NCBI GenBank assembly: GCA_949710005.1
Contig: OX453275.1
Location: forward strand, 17,941,259-18,005,258
DNA from: Ricordea florida
Taxonomy: Eukaryota; Cnidaria; Anthozoa; Corallimorpharia; Ricordeidae
Length of the DNA: 64,000 nt
Reading direction: 5' to 3'
Below, piece after piece: positions 10,154 through 16,777 of this stretch. The notes beneath the pieces were generated by a model. That model searched no databases. It saw only the letters and a program-made list of their open reading frames with translations, and was not told where the DNA came from. Both the position numbers and the translations under genes were made by a program. The stretch's first letter is position 1, and every line of letters starts with the position of its first letter.

Positions 10154-10501
10154 TTAGTCCATGGGCCAATCGTGATTTTGGTACCAACTCGAAGGACAAA
10201 GGATGATTGCTGCGAATTGATAGCACATACGGTGCAGATTGAAAATTTGTATGATAACCTTTCTGTAGGAGTAGCTTTCAGGGTATTTTTTTCATGTAAA
10301 AGTACGGGAAATGACCTTTGAGATACCAACCAGCCAACTAAATGTGCACTTAATGTGTTCTATATCTTTTGTAGTTTAATTTATTATGAGACATGAGAAG
10401 TTTTTTGTTGTGTTTTTCATATTAATTGTTCTGAATTTAACCAAAGTAGAGCGAGGAAAACTCAAAAGTAGCCCTCGAATAGCATTATGGGTAAATTCAA
10501 A

Positions 10502-13500
10502 ATGGCGGCTGCCATGGAGGGTGAGTGGGTTCTTGATTTGCAGGATTAATAGCCATTTTACCGTGTAAAACGCAATAATTTCACGAAAAGTCAGTAAAAT
10601 CATCTAGTTTATACAGCGCTCAAACTTTTTGATGCAAAAGTCTTTGAAGTTTTGACTTAATAAGCAGAATTTAGGAAATACTTACAGATCTTGTAGAATG
10701 TTTTCTTCGATAATCCGATAGAAATTGAAGTATAATTTTCGCTCATATCAATCATACACATCTGTTTTTAAACATTATTTGAATTATCGGTTATTCGTTA
10801 ATGAAAATTCCATATGATATGCCATTTTTAATGCATACATGGTTGCATAATGGTTTCTTTAAACACGCTAAAATCATCAGTCTAAAAAAGTTAAGTGAAG
10901 TAAAAAGGATATAAAGACTACACATACCTGAATGGCTTACATGATTATCGTGTGCCGGGAATCAGAAAACTAGGAGAGCTAACAGGTTTCTTTCCCTTTT
11001 GAACTGACTTAGCGATGTTGTTCTTTGTATGTTTGTTGTGGTAACTCATTCCAAATCGTGGCACCGCTATGGTGACAAAAAAAACTTTTGGAAGTGCAGA
11101 TAAGGTTTCGTAAATTATAATATACCGTATATGTGCTGTTATGTCCCCGTCTCAGTTGCAGTTGCATTGCAACTTAAACGCTGAAAAATATTCATCTGAT
11201 ACAAATAGGGTCCTCATCTAAGAGACGTGTTGATGATGCTGAGGAGTCAAATGCAGTCAAACGATTCTGCAAGAAGAAGTGTATCATTCACTGCACCGAC
11301 GATAGCAGTAATTTAGTTAATCCTAAAGATGAGGAGTCGTGGAAAACCTTGCTACGAGCAGCACAGATTCGAAATCATCAAGAAATCGTAGAACTTTCGA
11401 AGTCTTTAAGCGAAGGAGAAGTCCTGCTGATTTACTACCATCGAAAGTGTCGAAGCATTTTTACAATGAAGAAGTTATTAGATAAATTATTCCAGCAATA
11501 ATCCAATAGCCTGACTCAACCAGAACAAGTGGCTATGAGAGTGTCTATTCGAGGATCTTCCAATATTTCCACAACATATGAGCGCATTTGTATTTTTTGT
11601 GAAAAGCCAAGATATTTCAAGGGTACAAGGAATCGTGAGCCTTTAGTACAATGCCGAGATATGCGTGCAGATAGCTCTATCAGAAAGATAGCTACACAAA
11701 AGAATGACAGCAAGATTCTTGCCCTTGTGTCGCGCGAATTAGTTGCAGCAGAGGCTTGTTATCACAGGACATGCTACAGGAGTTACACTAGACCAGAAGC
11801 AAGCAGCAGTGTGAACCCTGATGTCAGCAGTGAATCTCCGGATGACGAATATGCCCATCTAGAGTCTGATGCCTACCAGATGCTTTTTGACTTTATCAGG
11901 TCAGATGTGATAGAAAACGAGAAAGTCGTAAGGTTGTCTGAGATGACGCAGTTACTTGTACAGTATCTAATGTCATTAGGGGCTAAGGAGTGTAAGCCAT
12001 CAACAAAGAAGCATATCAAAAGGAACATAGAAGCAGAATTTAATGAGTTGATCAAGTTTGAAAACTTGCTAGACAACAACCGTGTATTCCTAATCCCTCC
12101 TAACCTAACACCAGTGCAAATCGCCAGAAATGTACTAAATATCCTTATGGCAGAAAAAGAAGACAAAGGCTCAAAAACAAAGGTCTCCAATATTCAGAAA
12201 GCTGCAGCTGACATCCGCGATGCCATTCGAAACGAAGAGAGCAAAATGTCATGGCCACCGCGCCCTTCAGAGCTCAACGAAAGCGCCATAGAGGTCCCTG
12301 AAGAGCTTAGTGCGTTTTGTATACCTTGCTGACTGGCAACAAAGATTCGTCAGAGGGAGAATGTTGTCAAAGAGTCCAGCGGTTGATGAAGTCGTTCGCG
12401 CAAGACCTAGTATTTGGAGTAACCAGAGGGAGGATTAAGCCAACTAAACAAATTCTTCTCTCGTATGCTGTAAAAACTCTCACAAACAATGTTGAGCTAG
12501 TGTCTATACTAAACCGTTATGGTCATGGTATTTCCTATTCCCAGCTTGAGGAAATTAACACCGCTCGTTGTATGCAGAAAATGGCAACAACAACAAGTGA
12601 AATTCCTCTACCTGCCAATATACAACCTCATGTTAGTACCACATTAGCATGGGATAATATTGACAGACTCGAAGAGACTCTTTCAGGTGAAGGCACTTCA
12701 CACCGTGTAAACGGCATAGCAGTACAGGCGAGACATTTTGGCCCCCATCCCCTCACTGAGCAGCCACCTGGGATCACTAAAAGTAAGCAAAGGAGTGTTG
12801 AGCCACTTGATGTTGTTGCTCTACCCATTTACAATGCAGGTGAGCGTCAAGGCCCTAAGCCAAGAGCATATGTTGAAGTAAACGACCAGGAAGCGTTAGA
12901 AAATGCCCGAAGAAAAAACCTTTTATGGGTTTTAGTGCGCCTACATGCACAGGTGAGCCAGAAAGTTAGTGGATGGACTGGCTATAACATTTTGGTGCGC
13001 AACGAAATTGAGGCTCGTGAAGACAATATCGGATACCTCCCCACTATTGATGCGCCTGCAACTAACATGTCAACTGTTAATGAGATTTTGGTCCGCTCCC
13101 AGAAGATAAGAGAAACTCTTGTACTGAAGAGCATAGTACTCGTATTTGATCAAGCTCTGTATGCCAAGGCAACAGAGAAACATCCAGACAAGTTTTCAGA
13201 TATTGTTATTCGGATGGGTGTCTTCCATACAGTGTGCACACTTCTTTCCATAATCGGAAAGAGATTCCAAGACGCTGGTTTAAGGGACGTTCGCATTGAA
13301 TCAGGGGTAATTGCTGAAGGTTCTGTGACAGGAGTTCTTGAAGGACGTAGATACAACCGTGCTGTGAGGTTTCATAAACTGATGTATGAAGCACTCCAAA
13401 GACTTATCTGGAAAGGATTTCAGACGTGGGTAGAAGTAAAGTTCCCCGAGAAGAAACAGTTTATCCAAGATTTCTTTGCCGGATTGAAACCTTTATACGA

Positions 13501-15857: not shown

Positions 15858-16295
15858 AATATGTGGTCTGATTCTGTTTCTCAGCGTATTTGCCTTGGCT
15901 GTCGACATGATATATTGCCCACAGAAGAATACAGTCATTGCTAGTCGCTGCTACATTTAAACATATGACTTGCTAAATGTGCACCCAAAATACATAAAAA
16001 CAAATGATCATCGTAAGAGGAACTATAACGTTTTGCATGTCACCCTCGAACATCCAAAAAGTATGCATGCTTCGCAGAAAAACCACAATTAGTGCTTTTG
16101 CCGGAACAGTTTGCAACTATGGTCTTTTAGTTTATAGTTTTGAGAGCAGTTTCTTTCACAGCTTGAATTCTGAGGATTTTGCATGTTCCTTCCAGTTTTG
16201 ATCGTTTTGGGGCACTTCAGGGGACAAAATTGGCATGTTTGAAAATCAATGATGGCGGATCTAATATGGCCGCCAAAAAGGTAATGTCATAATAT

Positions 16296-16777
16296 TAGTC
16301 CATGGGCCTCATAGGTAGCTATAACACCTGAGTCAAACTAGTATGTAGTTGTCATCTAGAACTATCATTTAACAGTTTTTTCAAACAATTCATCTTTATT
16401 ACTTTAGTTAATATCGACCCTCTAGTTTAAAGGGCTACTTTTCTATGTTACCATGGCAACAAACACCAGAATTCATCTAATTTTGCTACAAAAGTCTCGA
16501 AAATCACTTGCAAAACAGTGGTACCATTTAATCATCTAAACGTGTCCCCAAAACATGAGTAAAAATGTAAGGAAAAACTTATGTAAGTACATTTATTTGA
16601 CATTGTAGAAAGCCGATTGACGTCATTTCATCACGTGATAAACCCTATAAAACATTTGACGTGGTTATCATACATTAAAATAAACTAGAGGAGTCATAGT
16701 TCTTTAAAATATAAGCCACTCTTTGTCCCTCTTTTTGGTACCAAATCATGAAATTTGAGGTCCTGGCCCATGGACTA
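16296..16777. mobile_element. Possible 482-bp MITE nested at the right end of the 6.6-kb element
   Basis: An extra TAGTCCATGGGCC at 16296-16308, preceded by TAT, pairs with the right terminal repeat at 16765-16777 and would define a 482-bp non-autonomous element of the same family. No ORF. It contains GTTACCATGGCAAC near 16447 and ATCACGTGAT near 16630. The alternative is a duplicated end within the large element, because the GGTACC motif next to the right terminus matches the far-left end (10155) better than this one. Confidence 0.45.

Follow-up and report, generated by a model that had tools for sequence, protein, structure and literature searches.

The locus examined here raises the question of which enzyme moves a transposon-like element whose only recognisable enzyme appeared to be a nuclease. 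The window, a stretch of 64,000 nucleotides from the corallimorpharian Ricordea florida (contig OX453275.1, positions 17,941,259 to 18,005,258), contains a 6623-bp element bounded by terminal inverted repeats (TIRs). The original prediction saw a FEN1/XPG-like PIN nuclease fused to a CXC domain as the only visible enzyme between these ends and proposed that it mobilises the element by a new mechanism. We find that the region upstream of the nuclease is a predicted DDE transposase core belonging to the same protein, which refutes the claim of a nuclease-only element here. The observation behind the prediction is confirmed in part, and its interpretation is partly supported. It is highly probable that the element is a decayed transposon of the Academ superfamily (AcademX lineage), with a DDE core and a fused FEN1/EXO1-like nuclease. 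The claim of a new transposition mechanism is thus removed, and a sharper question takes its place, namely the role of a flap-endonuclease-like domain inside a DDE transposase.

The gene of the window element

The interior had been read as one gene, and one gene is present, but it is decayed and does not lie in one frame. It runs through four segments in changing frames (11208-12317, 12317-14074, 14074-15681, and 15687-15854), with an in-frame stop at 11499-11501. The second segment was modelled as an RNase-H fold in which a helical insertion separates the fifth strand from the final catalytic acid, and structure comparison of the model placed the P element, Hermes, and RAG1 among the closest DDE folds, which suggests a P-element/hAT/RAG architecture. 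A VIA-align comparison of the whole protein had returned the PIN domain in its best 50 rows and no DDE rows, and the DDE part was therefore modelled separately. The catalytic triad was set to D113, D278, and E525 (codons 12653-12655, 13148-13150, and 13889-13891) because the structure comparison pointed there, replacing a first set (D25, D185, and E237 of homologue P0040, or D116, D278, and E328 of the window; kept along with every PIN acid in 70 of 72 rows). The final triad occurs together with all nine PIN acids in 69 of the 71 alignment rows that have letters at all 12 positions. The DDE model had no match at E < 1 in the viral structure library, and a Pfam scan of the three window open reading frames (ORFs) gave nothing above cut-off. 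The Pfam family DUF6589 (PF20231), of which no mention was found in the literature searched, weakly matches the DDE core of P0002, P0094, and P0098, three of the five homologues scanned; it may represent an Academ-type transposase core.

The nuclease itself stands as described. Asp172, Asp213, EEAD (310-313), EDTD (336-339), and the GRD...GRGK loop are all found at the expected places within 14074-15684, and the predicted structure matches the EXO1/FEN1/XPG fold over about 260 residues, with 9%–15% identity in the rows listed. Each of the nine PIN acids is conserved in 75 or 76 of 76 rows, while position 336, the E of EDTD, varies (E in 55 of these rows, D in 18). Neither the PIN ORF nor profile A4 had a match in sequence searches of the PDB. 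A C-terminal CXC-like cluster is also present, and its cysteine spacing is conserved among the aligned homologues, but in the window copy it is out of frame with the nuclease ORF; in nine of nine aligned homologues the reading is continuous. The Pfam TCR family was matched under the cut-off (E 0.11-0.42) in four of the five homologues scanned, and P0001 had no match. The CXC cluster and the N-terminal zinc-binding-like modules probably bind DNA.

Homologues were sought with the read-through translation (residues 480-1490 scored; 7989 candidates scored), and 196 proteins had E <= 0.001, of which the best 120 are listed. The Porites evermanni homologue (1469 aa) aligns with a gap at query residues 827-903 and shares 89%–94% protein identity. 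Long named homologues come from Branchiostoma (1467-1500 aa), Nymphon (1554 aa), and Oculina (1556 aa), and shorter ones, of 972-1127 aa or less, from Actinostola, the fish Eleginops, and Nucella; many of the remaining listed proteins have 1450-1590 aa. The named sources among the matches listed comprise cnidarians and chordates as well as a pycnogonid and a snail, and three of the homologues are called 'Tesmin/TSO1-like CXC domain-containing protein' in their source. In rows that are long enough, the common order is zinc-binding-like modules, DDE region, PIN region, and CXC. An intact element would encode one protein of about 1550 aa.

Decay can partly be assigned to the window copy. A single tblastn match spans residues 1-1243 in the copy L015; because this match is continuous, the first two frame changes are peculiar to the window copy, with its duplicate L011, and are no trait of the family. 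With one stop and three frame changes, the window copy is probably inactive.

Table 1. Positions and strands of the features described, in window coordinates unless a locus is named
Feature	Position	Strand	Remarks
Decayed DNA transposon, very probably of AcademX type, 6623 bp	10155..16777	+	
14-bp terminal inverted repeat, left	10155..10168	+	TAGTCCATGGGCCA
14-bp terminal inverted repeat, right	16764..16777	-	
Target-site duplication, left	10152..10154		TAT
Target-site duplication, right	16778..16780		TAT
Subterminal motif, left	10180..10202	+	GGTACCAACTCGAAGGACAAAGG; second motif behind the 14-bp end
Subterminal motif, right	16721..16742	-	matches the left subterminal motif
482-bp right-end unit	16296..16777	+	own left-type 13-bp end at 16296-16308
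N-terminal part	11208..12317	+	two C..C/YHRxC(Y/R)xx(Y/F)T zinc-binding-like modules (by eye)
Predicted DDE transposase core	12317..14074	+	RNase-H fold with helical insertion
Predicted FEN1/EXO1/XPG-type PIN nuclease domain	14074..15684	+	D172, D209, D213, E310, E311, D313, D337, D339, D395
CXC (tesmin/TSO1-like) cysteine cluster	15687..15854	+	C-terminal; other frame in the window copy
L034-family elements, 3.75 kb, without DDE	L034:3154-6909, L036:1256-5028, L037:1257-5009		

Ends, target sites and copies in the genome

The 14-bp ends of the window element form a perfect inverted match, and TAT flanks each of them (Table 1). Exact occurrences of the left 14-mer number 66 in the 537.8-Mb, 48-contig assembly, 33 on each strand, whereas the reversed 14-mer, used as control, has none. 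Pairing of neighbouring plus and minus ends gave 22 close pairs including the window element; the copy set (n = 21) consists of the window and 20 other pairs, leaving out one on C7 with ends 11.3 kb apart. Loci L001-L008, brought in by the end search, lie outside the copy-by-copy analysis.

A 3-bp target-site duplication (TSD) flanks all 21 copies, and a 4-bp extension is present in none. Further copies with the same ends exist, as expected, and 15 different duplicated sequences occur among 20 independent insertions; the target duplication is 3 bp and TAT is not fixed. The count is 20 because the flanks of L011 are duplicated as well: L011 (G000:C4:17128659-17135896), which lies on the same contig at a distance of about 0.8 Mb, repeats the window locus in inverted orientation, with 99.5% identity across the element and 100% and 99.7% across the two 300-bp flanks, and was rejected as an independent copy. 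It is either a segmental duplication or an assembly artefact. The comparison of filled and empty sites was also positive: an unoccupied relative of the host repeat of L013 lies in the 5' flank of L019, and the L013 flanks joined with one ATT align across its junction. Shared ends, 3-bp TSDs, and this empty site identify the element as mobile DNA.

The gene content of these copies varies, and not all of them keep the nuclease. Matches to both DDE and PIN are present in six of 21 copies, five of them independent (window, L011, L015, L020, L010, and L018, the last with gaps in the PIN match), and copies spanning the whole gene measure 6.2-6.6 kb. Ten copies that keep perfect ends and TSDs lack residues ~740-1417, and with them the final third of DDE and the greater part of PIN: nine of about 4.0 kb plus L028, which holds a nested long interspersed nuclear element (LINE). 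Four others (L012, L023, L024, and L026) keep PIN sequence without the DDE region, and L017 retains the two ends of the gene alone. Another transposase as the cause of the long copies L018, L023, and L028 was rejected, since nested retroelements explain their length. Judged by eye from their motifs, the one in L023 has reverse transcriptase, RNase H, and tyrosine recombinase ORFs and is DIRS-like, and those in L018 and L028 have LINE-like ORFs.

A search of the same genome with the PIN ORF gave at least 84 matches, dispersed and many of them broken. Seven further PIN loci were inspected within the 8 kb fetched for each, and three have a TIR pair with a 3-bp TSD: L031, with ends TAGTGTATGAGCCA, TSD TTA, and both DDE and PIN, and L034 and L035, which lack DDE. 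No pair with TSD was accepted at the other four. L029 and L030 have no inverted pair in the fetched stretch; the pair at L032 is a match of 11 bp in the subterminal motif and the one at L033 a match of 10 bp within the gene, and neither was accepted as ends.

L034 and L035 each head a DDE-less family. The three members of the first (L034, L036, and L037) are 98%–99% identical, with ends TAGTCCATGAGC, subterminal inverted repeats of 396 bp (78%), and TSDs GTG, GGT, and GAA; their PIN-CXC frame is open over 672, 636, and 672 aa, respectively. The second (L035, L038, and L039; 3.1 kb, 96%–99.5% identical, ends TAGTCCGGAAGAT) has TSDs TCT and ATA, identified in two of its three members, and a PIN-CXC frame of 641-642 aa that is broken in L039. 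At about 28% to the window protein, the L035 family is a second, deeply diverged Academ-like lineage. Both families are recent amplifications. Because the DDE-less frames begin inside the DDE tail (by eye), the families look like internal deletions. An ancient DDE-free lineage was dropped for this reason, and because a longer part of the tail survives in L040, whose identity to the L035 ORF is 48%. On few substitutions, dN/dS is 0.33-0.58 within the L034 family and between the two closest members of the L035 family, and 0.83-0.99 in the two comparisons that involve L039. It is possible that the PIN-CXC part of these amplified derivatives works in trans as a component of its own.

Known systems and the proposed mechanism

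Academ and AcademX were reportedly described by Kapitonov and Jurka (Repbase) and by Kojima in 2020, and the AcademX nuclease is termed XPG in Repbase. Our literature search returned nothing to the point on Academ with XPG, or on a transposon with an XPG nuclease or CXC. Academ is counted among the superfamilies with a DDD/E transposase (PMC9587614); AcademX has an element-encoded nuclease and a TSD of 3-4 bp, while AcademH has a helicase instead and a TSD of 9-10 bp (PMC10045372); and a survey of bivalves with DDE/D profiles that include Academ gives a mean of 5565 bp for its autonomous Academ consensus sequences (PMC10294476). The present element is of a known kind and fits AcademX by its features, the references being compared by description: it is a eukaryotic TIR element with a DDD/E transposase, an element-encoded nuclease, a 3-bp TSD, and dispersed copies, and no difference from the lineage description was seen. 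The length of its whole-gene copies is also comparable to the bivalve mean (5.6 kb). AcademH belongs to the same superfamily but differs in its TSD, and no helicase family appeared in Pfam scans of the three window ORFs and five homologues.

The likeness to P element, Hermes, RAG1, and Transib enzymes lies in the RNase-H fold and its large helical insertion, which in these enzymes stands before the last catalytic acid. Unlike them, the protein here is fused to an EXO1/FEN domain and CXC, and its 3-bp TSD departs from the 8 bp of P, which is a criterion of the P element superfamily, and of hAT, and from the 5 bp of Transib. EXO1/FEN1/XPG nucleases share the fold and the conserved acid set, at the low identity given above, but are here represented by part of a transposase fusion.

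We propose that the DDE core would cut the 3' ends of the transposon and join them to the target with a 3-bp stagger, with the zinc-binding-like modules and CXC holding DNA, and that the PIN nuclease would process the other strand. After nick-and-join, the junction of transposon and donor would be a 5' flap, and 5' flaps are the natural substrate of the FEN/EXO1 class. In our preferred last step, PIN would cut or trim the flap of donor DNA on the 5' ends of the transposon, a task that TnsA has in Tn7, and so turn the intermediate into a simple insertion. The proposed division of labour, DDE for the 3' ends and a separate nuclease for the 5' ends, would resemble that of TnsA and TnsB, which are two proteins, TnsA being restriction-endonuclease-like and not PIN. 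AcademX transposases as two-nuclease machines, a single-protein eukaryotic counterpart of TnsA/TnsB in which a P/RAG-type DDE core serves the 3' ends and EXO1/FEN the 5' flap, and from which DDE-less PIN-CXC derivatives were amplified, are a tentative proposal that we hold at well under even confidence.

The main rival, which we consider rather unlikely, lets the nuclease open hairpins or resolve branched ends after P/hAT/RAG-type cleavage, without any 5' flap cut. The closest DDE folds favour it, as Hermes and RAG1 make flank hairpins and FEN/XPG/GEN1 relatives cut branched DNA; flank hairpins, however, are usually handled by host end-processing, and the current evidence does not separate the hairpin from the 5'-flap reading. 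A nuclease that is a passenger or regulator, unneeded for transposition, would agree with the ten good-ended copies without most of PIN, which are consistent with its being dispensable in cis. Yet the same copies are also without roughly the last third of the DDE core and need supply in trans anyway, and the joint retention of triad and PIN acids in 69 of 71 rows, with named members from cnidarians and chordates as well as from a pycnogonid and a snail, is hardly passenger-like; we regard this explanation as improbable.

Mobilisation by the FEN-like nuclease alone, with the upstream region accessory, can still point to genuine ends and TSDs, near-invariant PIN acids, the amplified L034 and L035 families, and the four of 21 end-selected copies that keep PIN without DDE. 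Against these stand the DDE fold and its conserved triad in the same protein, the ten copies showing that PIN retention is not the rule, and the appearance of the DDE-less families as internal deletions; to our knowledge, no PIN nuclease joins DNA strands. We give this reading very little credence. Still less can be granted to a host gene family lying between two repeats by chance, to which the abundance of PIN matches and the four PIN loci without an accepted TIR pair and TSD would lend colour: the matches are dispersed and often broken, TIR pairs with TSDs occur at three further loci besides the 21 end-selected copies, and TSDs and the empty site disfavour it. Intact homologues and DDE-less, PIN-keeping derivatives provide material for testing the role of the fused nuclease.

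Further features of the ends

A GGGACAAAG-like core recurs by eye in a second conserved block about 25-60 bp from most ends, as judged in the window, the L013-like and L010/L018 subfamilies, and L026; the block is plausibly a second transposase-binding site. Beside the left end of the window element lies a perfect palindrome (10110-10154; 22-bp arms, 1-bp centre), whose arm end coincides with the TSD. A palindromic target preference was dropped, as one of 20 independent sites has such a stem (23; next best 7), and three of 300 random 120-bp pieces taken from the window also have stems of at least 20. At the right, the 13-bp end occurs a third time, in direct orientation, which the original prediction had missed, so that the 482-bp unit has ends of both orientations. 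L015 (TSD AAA) has the unit as well, with a length of 503 bp. Its appearance suggests the capture of a small related element that became the new right end.
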